Source: Erythrobacter sp. SCN 62-14 | GTDB lineage: Bacteria; Pseudomonadota; Alphaproteobacteria; Sphingomonadales; Sphingomonadaceae | DNA: 32,733 nucleotides | Direction: 5' to 3' | Assembly (NCBI GenBank): GCA_001724215.1 | Contig: MEDW01000021.1 | Location: 1-32,733 of the forward strand | Shown: in pieces, positions 11,208 through 20,190 of the stretch | Layout: every line of letters begins with the position of its first letter | Numbering within the stretch: position 1 is the stretch's first letter | Made by a program: the position numbers and the translations under genes | The notes under the pieces: generated by a model | What the model saw: only the letters and a program-made list of their open reading frames with translations | Databases searched by the model: none | What the model was told of the DNA's origin: nothing

Positions 11208-11951
11208 ATGCAGGCAGGCATTTGGTCGAATATAGGGCGTATGCGCGCCATTGCGAGTGCGAGCCTTGCAATTGTCGTGATGCTTGCCGGATGCAGCGGG
11301 AGCGAGGGCGACGAAGCCGCCACAGTCACCCGTGCACAGGCCGAAGCTGAGGCTGCTCCGCCGCCGATCCCGGTTATGGGACCAGAGCGGCGGGTCATCG
11401 CCTTTGGTGACAGCTTGTTTGCAGGATATGGCTTGAACGAGGGCGAGAGTTACCCTGATCGGCTCGAAGCCGCGTTGCGTGCGCGGGGGATCAATGCTGC
11501 AATCACCAATGCAGCCGTCTCGGGCGACACCACGGCTGCCGGGCGGCAAAGGCTGGCCTTCACCTTGGATGCGCAGGCGCAAAAGCCTGATCTGTTTATT
11601 CTGGAGCTTGGCGGCAATGATCTGTTGCGCGGCCTGTCCCCGCAGGAAACCCGCGCCAATCTTGCCGCCATGCTCGAAGAATTGCGCGCGCGCGGCATCC
11701 CGGTGCTGTTGATGGGAATGCGCAGCCCTCCCAATTATGGCTCGGATTATCAGGCGCAGTTCGATGCGATCTACCGCGATTTGGCCAAGCAATATGGCGC
11801 AGCTCTAATCCCCTTCTGGCTGGAGGATATCTACGAGGATCAAAGCCTGTTTCAGCCGGACCGGATCCACCCGACCGCCGAAGGAATTGAACGGCTGGTT
11901 GCCTCGACCATCGCTGCAGTGCGCGCGGCCTTGCCTGAGGATGATGCCTAG
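11208..11951 (+). CDS. TesA-like GDSL arylesterase lipoprotein
   Basis: A 247-residue SGNH/GDSL hydrolase. Block I is AFGDSLFAGYGL with nucleophile Ser69, the oxyanion Gly lies in the block II region NAAVSGDTT, block III is GGND (135-138), and the catalytic Asp218/His221 are in DRIHP. These match multifunctional acyl-CoA thioesterase I/lysophospholipase (TesA). The N-terminus has a signal segment ending in LAGC (Cys29), so the enzyme is probably membrane-anchored in the periplasm, unlike soluble TesA. The ATG at 11208 has AAGGAAAGG upstream. An ATG at 11241, with AGGG five bases away, gives a shorter signal peptide and is a real alternative. It is divergent from the ybbA-like gene. Its stop overlaps the recF stop on the other strand by four bases. 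Confidence 0.88.
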   Translation: MQAGIWSNIGRMRAIASASLAIVVMLAGCSGSEGDEAATVTRAQAEAEAAPPPIPVMGPERRVIAFGDSLFAGYGLNEGESYPDRLEAALRARGINAAITNAAVSGDTTAAGRQRLAFTLDAQAQKPDLFILELGGNDLLRGLSPQETRANLAAMLEELRARGIPVLLMGMRSPPNYGSDYQAQFDAIYRDLAKQYGAALIPFWLEDIYEDQSLFQPDRIHPTAEGIERLVASTIAAVRAALPEDDA

Positions 11952-13036
11952 GCGCGCTTGGCCTCGCCGCCACTTACCTGCCAGATCGCGGCTTCATCGA
12001 GGATGCGTTCAAAAGGCGCAAGCTCGGTCCCCGTCATCCACACCTGCGCGCGCCCTTTGGCGAGGCGGGCGAATAATTCGGCGCGGCGCACCGGATCAAG
12101 GTGGGCTGCGACTTCATCGAGCAACAGCACACTCGGACGACCGGCGGCCGCAAGCGCGCCGTGAGCAAGGGTGATCGCGATCAGCATCGCTTTCTGCTCG
12201 CCGGTTGAACAGGATGCGGCAGGCTGCCCGCTTGAGGCCATCACCACTTCCAGCTCGTCGCGCTGCGGCCCAGTGAGCGCGCGGCCTGCGGCTCGATCAC
12301 GCGGGCGGGCGCGAGCAAGTTCGTCGCGCAAACCCGCCGCATCCAGCGGCCCGCCGGGGTGCAAGGCGATGAGCGGCTTGGCAAAAGGTTCAGGCGGCAG
12401 GGCTGAGAGTTCATCGCTCAAGCGGCTGACCAGCGCTGCACGGGTGTGATGCAGCGCAGCCCCGTGTTCTGCGACCTGCGCTTCGATAGCATCAAGCCAT
12501 GCGGCATCGCCGCGTGCCTCCAGCAGACGATTGCGTTCGCGCAAGGCGGCCTCGAACTGCGTTACTCGGCGCGCGTGATCGGGCGCAATGGCGAGCGCCA
12601 TGCGATCAATAAAGCGTCGCCGCGCGCCTGCACTATCGGTGAACAACCCATCCATCGCCGGAGTCAGCCACGAGAGGGCCAACCATTCGCTGAGTGCACT
12701 GGCGCTGGCGGCTGCACCATTGATCCGCACCAGCCTGCGCCCCGGCTGGCTTGCCTCGGTGTAAGTGCCAAGCCGCGCGGAAAACTGCCCCTGTTCGATC
12801 AGGCTTGCCCCGATGGCAAAAGCTTGGGGGGGCTCTCCTGCAGCGGCCTTGCGCCCCAGATCGCCGAGCCCTGCGCGGCGCAGACCCCGGCCCGCGCCGA
12901 GCAGCGAGATCGCTTCCAGGAGGTTGGTCTTGCCCGCGCCGTTCGCGCCCACCAGCAGATTGAAATGCGCCGTCTCGCCCAGCTCGGTCGCGGCGTGATT
13001 GCGGAAATTGGCGATGGTGATTTTGCTGAGCGCCAT
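11948..13036 (-). CDS. recF: DNA replication and repair protein RecF
   Basis: A 362-residue SMC-like ATPase that acts with RecO and RecR to load RecA at single-strand gaps. The N-terminus (LSKITIANFRNH) is typical. Walker A is GANGAGKT (30-37), the signature-like region is STGEQKAML, and Walker B is VLLLDEVAAHLD, followed by QVWMTGTE. Length fits the family. In this genome recF is not next to dnaA, dnaN or gyrB. It stands alone, converging on the esterase gene with a four-base overlap of stop regions. An inverted repeat at 13093-13139 lies in its upstream region. Confidence 0.94.
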   Translation of the reverse strand: MALSKITIANFRNHAATELGETAHFNLLVGANGAGKTNLLEAISLLGAGRGLRRAGLGDLGRKAAAGEPPQAFAIGASLIEQGQFSARLGTYTEASQPGRRLVRINGAAASASALSEWLALSWLTPAMDGLFTDSAGARRRFIDRMALAIAPDHARRVTQFEAALRERNRLLEARGDAAWLDAIEAQVAEHGAALHHTRAALVSRLSDELSALPPEPFAKPLIALHPGGPLDAAGLRDELARARPRDRAAGRALTGPQRDELEVVMASSGQPAASCSTGEQKAMLIAITLAHGALAAAGRPSVLLLDEVAAHLDPVRRAELFARLAKGRAQVWMTGTELAPFERILDEAAIWQVSGGEAKRA

Positions 13037-13092
13037 AGCTTTTGAGCGGTTAGCCGGGGGCGGTCATGAAGGAAAGGGCGGCGCTTAAAAAG

Positions 13093-13139
13093 CACCCATC
13101 CCAAACCTTAGGAAATTTCCCCAAGCTTTCGGATGGGTG
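13093..13139. promoter_or_regulatory. Inverted repeat upstream of recF
   Basis: CACCCATCC (13093-13101) and GGATGGGTG (13131-13139) are a perfect 9-bp inverted pair. The 29-base loop itself holds the palindrome GGAAATTTCC (13111-13120). It could be an operator or a leader structure for recF or for the divergent peptide operon. The function is unknown. Confidence 0.35.
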
Positions 13140-13168
13140 AACGGTCGGTTTGCTCAGTGAAAGCAAGG

Positions 13169-13190
13169 AAATGGCAGAATTCCGCCATTT
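13169..13190. promoter_or_regulatory. Near-perfect 22-bp palindrome, possible activator site
   Basis: Arms AAATGGC and GCCATTT flank an eight-base centre containing GAATTC; 20 of 22 positions are symmetrical. It ends nine bases before the -24/-12 promoter at 13199. Its symmetry and location suit a dimeric regulator. Enhancer sites for sigma-54 activators more often lie 80-150 bases upstream, so a repressor or a second sigma-70 mode is also possible. Confidence 0.45.
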
Positions 13191-13198
13191 TTCGAGTT

Positions 13199-13214
13199 TG
13201 GCACACCTCGTGCA
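13199..13214 (+). promoter_or_regulatory. Sigma-54-type (-24/-12) promoter
   Basis: TGGCAC, five bases, then GTGCA. The invariant GG (13200-13201) and GC (13212-13213) are separated by exactly 10 bases as RpoN promoters require; one base differs from TTGCA. It points at the two small peptide genes and pspC. Psp systems are classically sigma-54-dependent, which supports the call. Confidence 0.6.
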
Positions 13215-13278
13215 AAGTGTTTTGCGTCCCCCGGGATGGTCCGGGGATCATGTGAAAACACACCAAGGAGTAACCCAA

Positions 13279-13392
13279 ATGTTCACCACCAACTTTGCTG
13301 ATCGCTTCGTCGCTGCCGCTTTTTCGGTCGTCATTTCCGCTGGCCTGCTCGCCTATGCGATCCTCCCCGCATCCCCCGCCATCATCGCCTGA
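13279..13392 (+). CDS. 37-residue membrane peptide, copy 1
   Basis: A 37-residue peptide starting MFTTNF and ending in ASPAIIA. It begins at an ATG with a good Shine-Dalgarno, AAGGAG, at 13265-13270. One hydrophobic stretch (about residues 10-31, AAAFSVVISAGLLAYAILPA) predicts a single membrane span. It is clearly paralogous to the next peptide: shared features are MF-x2-NF, AAFSV-x-ISA, AYAI-x-PASP and the same length. It lies about 55 bases downstream of the predicted start of the sigma-54-type promoter and upstream of pspC, so an envelope-stress role is inferred. I recognise no named family. Confidence 0.7.
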   Translation: MFTTNFADRFVAAAFSVVISAGLLAYAILPASPAIIA

Positions 13393-13433
13393 CGCCGCAT
13401 CCGCGCCCAAGGCCCCATACAAGGACACACACC

Positions 13434-13547
13434 ATGTTCGGCAACAACTTCTCGGTCCGCCTCGCTTCGGCAGCTTTCTCGGTGATGATCTCGGCGGCTT
13501 TCTTCGCCTATGCGATTATCCCTGCCAGCCCGAGCTTGATGGCGTGA
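13434..13547 (+). CDS. 37-residue membrane peptide, copy 2
   Basis: A second peptide of exactly 37 residues (start MFGNNF, end ASPSLMA), 41 bases after copy 1, with its own AAGGA (13421-13425). About 60% of residues match copy 1 and the rest are mostly conservative. The reading frame, length and Shine-Dalgarno are conserved although the DNA differs at many third positions. This indicates selection on the peptide rather than a recent duplication. The single membrane span is at about residues 10-31. It lies 60 bases upstream of pspC in the same direction, probably in one transcript. Confidence 0.7.
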   Translation: MFGNNFSVRLASAAFSVMISAAFFAYAIIPASPSLMA

Positions 13548-13607
13548 GCTTGGCCTGAGGCCAACTTCCCCCTAGCCTTGATCCATCGATACGAAGGAGT
13601 GCCCCAC

Positions 13608-13820
13608 ATGAACCAGATCACCCCCAATGACAGCAAGCCGCCGCGCGGCAGCTTCCGCCTCGACAAAGGCAATGCCAAGGTGTTTGGCGTGTGTTCGGGC
13701 ATCGGCAATTATTTCGATGTTGACCCGATGCTGGTGCGGATCGGCTTTGTCGCCGCCACGCTGCTGGGCTTTGGCAGCCCGGTGCTGATCTACCTCGCGG
13801 TCGCGCTGATCGCGGATTAA
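13608..13820 (+). CDS. PspC-domain envelope stress protein
   Basis: A 70-residue protein consisting mostly of one PspC domain: FRLDKGNAKVFGVCSGIGNYFDVDPMLVRIGF, then the hydrophobic VAATLLGFGSPVLIYLAVALIA. PspC proteins are inner-membrane components of the phage-shock response. They sense or relay envelope damage and, in enterobacteria, work with PspB to release PspF from PspA. It is shorter than E. coli PspC (119 residues) but similar to the small PspC-domain proteins of many bacteria. The ATG at 13608 is preceded by GAAGGAG. No pspA, pspB or pspF is nearby; the two small peptides take their place. Confidence 0.88.
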   Translation: MNQITPNDSKPPRGSFRLDKGNAKVFGVCSGIGNYFDVDPMLVRIGFVAATLLGFGSPVLIYLAVALIAD

Positions 13821-13883
13821 TTCCCAAGCTGCCCACCCACACCCTTGGCCTTCGCCGGGGTGAGGGCGGGGCGGGGCGCAGGG

Positions 13884-14666
13884 TTACATCGCGCTGATAC
13901 CGCCATCTAGCTTCAGTTCCGCCCCCGTCATGAAGCGGCTTTCATCGCTGGCGAGGTAAACCACCGCATTGGCGATATCATTGGGCTCGCCGACGAATTT
14001 GAGCGGAATCTGGCGGGCAAGCTTTTCCATCAGCACATCCTTATCAAGCGCGTGCGCGCGCGCTGTGCCATCAAGGATGGGCGTGTCTACAAAAGTCGGG
14101 TGCACCGAATTGCAGCGGATGTTCATGCCTTTTTTGGCGCAGTGCAAAGCGATGGATTTGGACAGCATCCACACCGCCGCCTTCGACGCATTATAGGCCG
14201 GCATGGTGTCGCTCGCGATCAGGCCGGCGATGCTGGAGATGTTGATGATCGATCCCGGCGCGTGTTCGCGCATCAACGGCAGGGCCTTTTGGCAGCCGTG
14301 GAAGATCGAATTAACGTTTATGTCAAAACAGCGCTGCCAATCGGAAAAATCGCAGGCCTCGATATTGCCGGGAACGCCAATGCCTGCATTGTTGACGAGC
14401 ACATTGAGCCCGCCCAGATGCTCGCGCGCGGCCTCTACTGCCGCTTCCCATTGGGCTGGATCGGTCACATCATGGCCGATGCCAAAGGCGGTTCCTGCGC
14501 CGATTTGTTCATTGATGATCGCGGCGGTTTCTTCTGCGCCAGCGGCGTTGATATCGGTTGCCAGCACCCGCGCGCCTTCTTCGGCAAGCCGGATGCAATG
14601 CGCGCGGCCAAGCCCTTGTGCAGCGCCAGTGACCAGCGCCAGTTTGCCCGCTACCCGTCCGCCCAT
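13884..14666 (-). CDS. SDR family NAD(P)-dependent oxidoreductase
   Basis: A 260-residue classical short-chain dehydrogenase. The nucleotide-binding motif is TGAAQGLG (13-20), a DV pair occurs near 66, the structural NNAG is at 92-95, and the catalytic set Ser145, Tyr158, Lys162 (YNASK) is intact. The C-terminus carries SRFMTGAELKLDGG, as usual. An acidic residue at the end of beta-2 (ATDIN, Asp38) favours NAD over NADP. The start has GGGAGAG nearby. It follows the Nudix gene by three bases and is the last gene of the minus-strand run that starts at lemA. The substrate is unknown; steroid or cyclic alcohol dehydrogenases are common relatives. Confidence 0.9.
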   Translation of the reverse strand: MGGRVAGKLALVTGAAQGLGRAHCIRLAEEGARVLATDINAAGAEETAAIINEQIGAGTAFGIGHDVTDPAQWEAAVEAAREHLGGLNVLVNNAGIGVPGNIEACDFSDWQRCFDINVNSIFHGCQKALPLMREHAPGSIINISSIAGLIASDTMPAYNASKAAVWMLSKSIALHCAKKGMNIRCNSVHPTFVDTPILDGTARAHALDKDVLMEKLARQIPLKFVGEPNDIANAVVYLASDESRFMTGAELKLDGGISAM

Positions 14667-19750: not shown

Positions 19751-19849
19751 CTATGTTGCAGAGCGCTTGGCGGCAGGCACCCTTATTCGATCGCCCCCTT
19801 GCGACGGCGTTGCGCCGGAACGATCGCGAGCACCCGCTCTTTCATCCAC

Positions 19850-19877
19850 TTCACATTAAGCTTACGCGCGCTATATG
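19850..19877 (+). promoter_or_regulatory. Likely ssrA promoter
   Basis: TTCACA (19850-19855), 16 bases, then TATATG (19872-19877), placing the start near 19883 at the acceptor-piece region of the tmRNA gene. The match to -35/-10 is moderate. The IS right end is about 100 bases upstream, so the promoter appears intact. Confidence 0.4.
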
Positions 19878-19882
19878 GGGTG

Positions 19883-20190
19883 TGTCGGGCGACCGACTAT
19901 GGCGATAAATTGCGGCGTGCAATAGGCACAACGGACCCGGGGGCAGTACCCGGCGGCTCCACCAGAAGCGGCGGCTCAACCGCATCTTCTGAAGGGGCCG
20001 AACCAGGATCGACGTGTGTTGAAAAGCGGTGTTTTCGCCCGGGCTGAGTAACCCGTTAAAGGCTCAAAACCCATAAGTGCCAACGACAACGAAGCACTTG
20101 CTCTCGCTGCGTAATGTGACGGCCTAACGGCCTGAATTTACAAAGCCTAGAGCGCGGTTGGACCGACCGGTCAACAGAACGGATACCGGG
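19883..20190 (+). ncRNA. ssrA: Two-piece (circularly permuted) tmRNA
   Basis: The gene order is acceptor piece, intervening segment, coding piece, as in alphaproteobacterial tmRNA. The acceptor piece ends in CGGCTCC-A-CCA (19954-19964). The coding piece begins GGGGCCG (19994-20000). These pair as a 7-bp acceptor stem with a G3-U wobble, the alanine identity pair recognised by AlaRS. The T-stem is perfect (19937-19941 with 19949-19953) and its loop reads GGCAGTA. The intervening segment 19965-19993 folds into a hairpin (AGAAG/CTTCT outside, GCGG/CCGC inside) and should be excised. After the conserved AACCAGGATCGACG segment comes the tag frame, 20079-20114, encoding ANDNEALALAA then TAA. With SmpB, tmRNA rescues stalled ribosomes and tags the product for proteolysis. 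The outer boundaries are approximate. Confidence 0.93.
20079..20114 (+). other. tmRNA proteolysis tag reading frame
   Basis: Resume codon GCC at 20079, then AAC GAC AAC GAA GCA CTT GCT CTC GCT GCG TAA. It encodes ANDNEALALAA, so with the charged alanine the full tag is A-ANDNEALALAA. The LAA end is the ClpXP-type recognition signal. ATAAGT before the resume codon resembles the determinant upstream of the frame in other tmRNAs. Confidence 0.93.

Follow-up and report, generated by a model that had tools for sequence, protein, structure and literature searches.

A putative satellite operon of the PspF/sigma-54 phage-shock regulon with genes for tandem 37-residue peptides and a mini-PspC in Erythrobacter

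The window analyzed here, a stretch of 32,733 nucleotides from Erythrobacter sp. SCN 62-14 (assembly GCA_001724215.1, contig MEDW01000021.1, positions 1 to 32,733), carries a compact locus in which a 22-bp palindrome, a -24/-12 element, a likely transcription start and a 5' stem-loop precede two 37-codon genes and a 70-codon pspC. Its features, with those of the flanking genes, are as follows.

13169 to 13190, no strand assigned: near-palindrome AAATGGCAGAATTCCGCCATTT, self-complementary at 20 of 22 bases; candidate upstream activating site (UAS) for PspF
13199 to 13214, + strand: sigma-54 -24/-12 promoter, TGGCAC-N6-TGCA, with GG at 13200-13201 and GC at 13212-13213, exactly N10 apart
13225, + strand: probable transcription start, placed from promoter geometry 12 nt past the C of the -12 element
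13229 to 13246, + strand: stem-loop in the leader, at the 5' end of the mRNA, from the fold and from covariation in 73 leaders
13265 to 13270, + strand: Shine-Dalgarno sequence AAGGAG of peptide 1
13279 to 13392, + strand: micropeptide gene 1, MFTTNFADRFVAAAFSVVISAGLLAYAILPASPAIIA, 37 amino acids plus stop (codons 13279-13389)
13421 to 13425, + strand: Shine-Dalgarno sequence AAGGA of peptide 2
13434 to 13547, + strand: micropeptide gene 2, MFGNNFSVRLASAAFSVMISAAFFAYAIIPASPSLMA, 37 amino acids plus stop (codons 13434-13544)
13594 to 13599, + strand: Shine-Dalgarno sequence AAGGAG of pspC
13608 to 13820 (codons to 13817), + strand: mini-pspC, 70 amino acids, PspC domain only (PF04024)
11948 to 13036, - strand: divergent recF-like neighbor (Pfam SMC_N, RecF/RecN/SMC), in conserved synteny
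13884 to 14666, - strand: convergent short-chain dehydrogenase neighbor (Pfam adh_short), in conserved synteny

A sequence-only reading of this DNA had proposed the near-palindrome, the exactly spaced sigma-54 promoter, two tandem paralogous peptides and pspC as the third gene of the operon, and all four held: the peptides are identical at 22 of 37 residues (72 of 111 bases), and the third product scored 60.4 bits against Pfam PspC (gathering cutoff, 25). Against the equivalog model TIGR02978, the same protein reached 51.6 bits, below the cutoff of 104, and covered profile positions 7 to 59 of 121. A simple scan of positions 13000 to 13950 with one consensus returned no sigma-70-like promoter on either strand, and a simple scan of the same interval returned two terminator-like sites, both on the - strand. 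Elsewhere in the window, at 19846 to 20188 on the + strand, lies an alphaproteobacterial (permuted) tmRNA gene (Rfam RF01849, 226.6 bits).

That reading had also noted the absence of pspA, pspB and pspF, which is true of the neighborhood but not of the genome (a 136-contig, 2.8-Mb assembly, 95% complete), for all three, with a second pspC, are found on contig C102. There, pspF is divergent from a 63-amino-acid open reading frame (ORF), pspA, pspB, pspC and four small ORFs; PspF, PspA, PspB and PspC all score above their NCBIfam equivalog cutoffs, and the pspF-pspA intergenic region has the same palindrome and promoter as the window. The idea that the peptides stand in for missing pspA, pspB and pspF is ruled out by this canonical locus. 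The sigma-54 gene, rpoN, is encoded on contig C54. The four small ORFs 3' of pspC (L036 728-1957, - strand) are membrane- or coiled-coil-like, and one is weakly related to PspB (30 bits in NCBIfam, below cutoff), which suggests an expansion of PspB-like proteins. The first ORF of the psp operon, both here (L036 3600-3791, - strand) and in relatives, is hydrophobic, conserved and about 60 amino acids long, with the motif FWxSKLGxAAxASIAAM... and without a Pfam match; no homology of this 63-amino-acid ORF to the window peptides was detected (hidden Markov model score below zero, hhalign probability 0.1).

The link between the two loci was examined with a palindrome-plus-promoter pattern. At three or fewer mismatches, the pattern matched the 2.8-Mb genome exactly twice, in the window and between pspF and pspA, and the reversed pattern matched nowhere, so the combination is not a product of chance. 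The two promoters agree at 34 of 47 aligned bases, with TTTTTCGAGTTTGGCAC unbroken. A third, more diverged psp-type site, on contig C85 in front of a putative small RNA (sRNA), was missed by the pattern. Within the genus, 52 of 61 genomes carried the pattern and none of the 61 its reverse. Downstream of 42 distinct sites, which were chosen rather than drawn at random and lie mostly outside known arrays of peptide genes, were found a psp operon (16 sites), peptide genes (14) or the putative sRNA (10); of the remaining two, one had been separated from its peptides by inserted DNA, and the other, at a contig end, was followed by the apparent beginning of a peptide gene. One consensus is common to the three classes of site (psp operons, n = 16; sRNAs, n = 10; peptide arrays). 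Because the same palindrome and promoter lie between pspF and the psp operon, we read the locus as a second PspF-type operon, and its sequence fits best with a satellite of the PspF/sigma-54 phage-shock regulon.

The palindrome of the window sits directly beside the -24 element, its center about 45 bp from the predicted start; PspF sites in E. coli lie farther from the start. It might instead serve another activator, or none, in an operon that is sigma-54 dependent but outside the PspF response. Further enhancer-binding proteins are encoded in the genome (five TIGR02974 matches reported, five of 16 candidates having been scored), and PspF itself would bind here by analogy of sites. Yet the same palindrome recurs in the genome's own pspF-pspA region and at the 16 psp operons of relatives, which makes a different activator very unlikely, and regulation by PspF and sigma-54 remains our preferred interpretation.

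Recurrence of the peptides in related genomes, which the sequence-only reading had put forward for checking, was confirmed at several depths. With one query sequence (E ≤ 0.1), 32 of 61 genomes, the source genome included, proved to carry them, all within the genus (32 of 37, against 0 of 24 outside it). A profile search (E ≤ 0.001) gave 88 carriers among 397 family genomes, spread over 25 of 96 genera; in a class-level sample of 289 genomes, the only two carriers belonged to the source genus. Among genomes with informative titles, 95 stretches encode a relative, 79 loci being kept; judged by record title, Erythrobacter, Porphyrobacter and Qipengyuania account for most of the carriers, and some others are metagenome-assembled genomes. 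PspF scored above cutoff in 368 of the 397 family genomes and the peptides were present in only 88, so they are not required for the Psp response; they are a lineage-specific addition to it. Neither copy matched any Pfam or NCBIfam family at E ≤ 1, which includes the known small Psp proteins PspB, PspD and PspG on the assumption that these libraries hold models for them; PADLOC, PHROGs and solved structures likewise gave no match. A 40-residue member of the family has 24 matching proteins in public databases. Three of the four matches named by source (P0003, P0010 and P0014, of 36 to 37 residues) are labeled enoyl-CoA hydratase, a misannotation that cannot be right for proteins of this size. 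The best hits of our literature searches, with subscription journals largely outside their reach, included no paper on these peptides.

We assembled 119 distinct arrays, none contained in another, which are related sequences rather than independent events. They comprise 13 single-copy, 75 two-copy, 30 three-copy and 1 four-copy arrays, for 257 copies. A third, longer peptide type, mostly of 48 amino acids, is a clear relative (hhalign probability, 98%). Several genomes have more than one array, each behind the same promoter; the extra arrays (L037-L053 and others) lack pspC, and among them are units of a single peptide and the distinct subtypes FATAIVPASP and MTNTANNF. Three arrays are truncated upstream; of the other 116, 115 have a -24/-12 element 59 to 86 nt before the first ATG, and in these 115 the register of the palindrome relative to -24 is fixed. 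The proposed start at 13225, which follows from promoter geometry, gains plausibility from the conservation of the site and leader around it across arrays. In the sole array without an adjacent promoter (L041), an insertion has separated the peptides from their promoter and leader, which are found about 35 kb upstream. An insertion of about 35 kb between a sigma-54 promoter with its ribosome-binding site and the first peptide was located at L236-L237 (G021:C1, about 2687000-2722200); it carries two ORFs that resemble tyrosine recombinases by eye and an ORF of 4,854 amino acids.

Linkage to pspC, another expectation of the sequence-only reading, is common but not universal. A pspC-like ORF on the same strand lies within 1.8 kb past 92 of the 119 arrays, most often in the domain-only form of 71 amino acids (some starts in the list are misplaced). 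These 92 arrays have recF divergently upstream in 90 cases, the dehydrogenase nearby in 90, and both in 88. The 27 arrays that lack pspC also lack recF, and five of them have the dehydrogenase, which marks them as mostly separate loci; the promoter is kept at 25, the other two being truncated upstream. This distribution bears on whether the two ORFs are simply leader peptides that tune translation of pspC, as their position ahead of it in most arrays could suggest. The 27 arrays without a pspC-like gene rule against that role, and nonsynonymous change in the peptides is held down (see below), so that we consider it hardly credible; the peptides appear to be products in their own right rather than mere companions of pspC.

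Selection on the peptides, likewise anticipated from the sequence, is evident at two scales. Between the two copies in the window, synonymous change exceeds nonsynonymous change (pS, 0.657; pN, 0.247), with dS near saturation (1.56). Among 139 copies of exactly 37 amino acids, pairs with dS below 1 gave a median dN/dS of 0.31 at position 1 (1,557 pairs) and 0.28 at position 2 (1,315 pairs). By these sequence measures, the peptides form a real family on which purifying selection acts. When each peptide was compared with those of other arrays, its closest counterpart carried the same position label in 124.1 of 135 cases, which indicates that the duplication is old and that two paralogue types have been kept.

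The peptides have the makings of single-pass membrane proteins. A short polar N-terminal end, with Arg9 in 114 of 139 copies and a basic residue somewhere in positions 1 to 12 in 194 of 240 distinct peptides, precedes a hydrophobic stretch whose 19-residue hydropathy peaks are 2.28 and 1.94 in the window copies. Ala13, Ala25, Ala27, Pro30 and Pro33 are nearly invariant, and the C-terminal tail has no net charge in 231 of 233 peptides. Our favored interpretation, which we regard as probable, is that they are stress-induced, single-pass peptides of the inner membrane that work with the mini-PspC and PspA on damaged membrane. An almost invariant Ala-x-Ala box, scored in the 233 of 240 distinct peptides that have the motif, may be read in two ways, as a box for signal peptidase I or as a packing face of small residues. 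Its alanines are conserved at -3 (228 of 233) and -1 (229 of 233), position -2 varies (Y, T, A, G, M, S, F or V), and +1 is Ile in 228 of 233.

The main rival to the membrane-peptide interpretation takes this box at face value. The peptides would be signal-peptide-like precursors, in which a short n-region containing Arg9 leads into a hydrophobic core and signal peptidase I cuts after Ala-x-Ala. The tail set free, I-[IV]-P-A-S-P-x-L-x-A, roughly ten residues long, would reach the periplasm or the exterior and serve there as an envelope ligand or a stress signal. The pattern of the box agrees with such a site, and the tail is itself conserved (Pro30 in 132, Pro33 in 133 and Ala37 in 130 of 139 copies). 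The alanines could equally serve helix packing, however; Tyr is common at -2 (161 of 233), the n-region has a net charge of zero in 182 of 233 peptides, and so hydrophobic a ten-residue product would be unusual. We consider cleavage possible though unlikely. A broader version, in which the PspF regulon has been rebuilt so that arrays release I[IV]PASPxLxA after an Ala-x-Ala cut upon membrane damage to signal within or plug the envelope, with a PspF-driven sRNA alongside, strikes us as fairly improbable.

Small hydrophobic peptides in tandem behind a stress-type promoter also recall membrane-active peptides of the type I toxin or TisB kind, which would be induced by damage and lower membrane potential and growth. 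The E. coli stress peptide YohP does lower membrane potential and is reported to be protective (PMC12719787). Against a toxin, the scan of 13000 to 13950 with its one simple consensus gave no sigma-70-like antisense promoter, the peptide ends are mostly net-neutral, PADLOC and PHROGs gave no match, and two paralogue types have been kept apart in arrays that are mostly linked to pspC. This makes a toxin improbable, and we continue with the membrane-peptide interpretation.

For a six-pair leader stem in 73 leaders, picked as diverse from 114 distinct ones, 76.5% of cells were paired against 61.1% in shuffles, and 61 cells had changed on both sides against 19.6 (sd, 3.3); both measures drop when the partner strand is slid by one to three columns, although the stem was named by eye, which somewhat favors the hairpin. 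The number of leader pairs changed on both sides was not clearly above shuffles (equaled by 56 of 500), nor was that of further pair types (equaled by 154 of 500). RNAalifold gave no consensus structure for the leader alignment, and the single-sequence fold of the window leader was not more stable than shuffles (z, 0.72). Located at the extreme 5' end of the predicted mRNA, the stem could protect the transcript. First copies often have a longer ribosome-binding site, reading GGAGAC in 66 of 106 distinct leaders (background starts, 3 of 520) and GGAGACC in 40 of 106 distinct sequences (background starts, 0 of 520).

The third class of psp-type site precedes a conserved putative sRNA of about 115 nt, with its own -24/-12 promoter.

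L259 1501-1621 (G000:C85:4947-5067), + strand: putative sRNA in the source genome
L217, L218, L221, L222, L228, L229, L232, L233, L239 and L242: putative sRNA in relatives

It has the motifs AAUGGUCUUC and CCUGGU and a strong intrinsic terminator, and it lies about 12 to 15 kb from the psp operon in several genomes. Matches at E ≤ 0.001 occur in 93 of 328 family genomes, the weak ones perhaps to the terminator alone, and the loci searched gave no Rfam match. Pairing of this RNA with the peptide ribosome-binding sites was tried with 15 sRNAs, of which 14 were located and 10 had a peptide leader, and was not supported, cognate pairs hardly differing from noncognate ones (n = 10 and 90). For the loop motif, the values were -16.2 against -14.9 at copy 1 and -11.9 against -12.2 at copy 2; for the 5' motif, they were -10.8 against -10.9 and -9.1 against -8.8. 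The loop motif paired with the first-copy leader no better than with background starts in 9 of 10 genomes, and the 5' motif paired with it more strongly than with 95% of background in 4 of 10.

Taken as a satellite of the phage-shock regulon, the locus might work as follows. Damage to the inner membrane would lead PspA to release PspF, which would bind the palindrome beside the promoter and open the sigma-54 RNA polymerase complex. The mRNA, with its 5' stem-loop, would yield two inner-membrane peptides (one to four in relatives) in an N-in/C-out orientation, together with the mini-PspC. The peptides, of two distinct paralogue types, would pack through a small-residue helix face and, with PspC and PspA, keep the membrane sealed, in a role resembling that of PspB, PspD and PspG, the small Psp proteins. 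The envelope-stress module suggested by the sequence-only reading thus keeps its tie to the Psp system through the promoter, while induction by stress and a protective role would follow from that tie. The Psp response has been little studied in this bacterial group, in which a family of sometimes misnamed micropeptides is now tied by its promoter to envelope stress. Erythrobacter-type bacteria have a second, apparently phage-shock-controlled operon that likely widens the products of the stress response, and the regulon would consist of three recurring units, namely the psp operon, the peptide arrays and the putative sRNA. Paralogue types that stay distinct across arrays offer targets for the roles of very small membrane proteins under stress.

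Among known systems, TisB is a small stress membrane peptide similar to the window peptides in size, hydrophobicity and stress link. YohP (27 amino acids; PMC12719787) is alike in the same three respects. No sequence relation to either is shown, and the window peptides differ from both in their probable sigma-54 control and tandem paralogues. The putative sRNA has parallels in GlmY and GlmZ, listed as sigma-54-dependent sRNAs with the activator GlrR (PMC3844500); all lie behind a sigma-54 promoter, but the site of the putative sRNA is psp-type. In Zymomonas mobilis, PspF and the psp operon are described as stress-responsive in a review (PMC11186258), and other papers note duplicated pspB and other variants of the psp operon (PMC11237479) and two UASs for pspA with one for pspG (PMC3709507). 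The window protein shares the PF04024 domain of PspC but consists of that domain only, in 70 amino acids, and falls below the equivalog cutoff. The genome's own canonical operon resembles the window in its UAS, promoter and small hydrophobic first ORF (63 amino acids) and differs in encoding pspA, pspB and a full pspC above the equivalog cutoff. As in the PspF regulon of E. coli (pspABCDE plus pspG), one PspF would serve a main operon and a distant unit for small proteins. Here, however, that second unit comprises tandem 37-residue peptides and a mini-PspC instead of pspG, the arrays multiply, and the putative sRNA would form a third unit.
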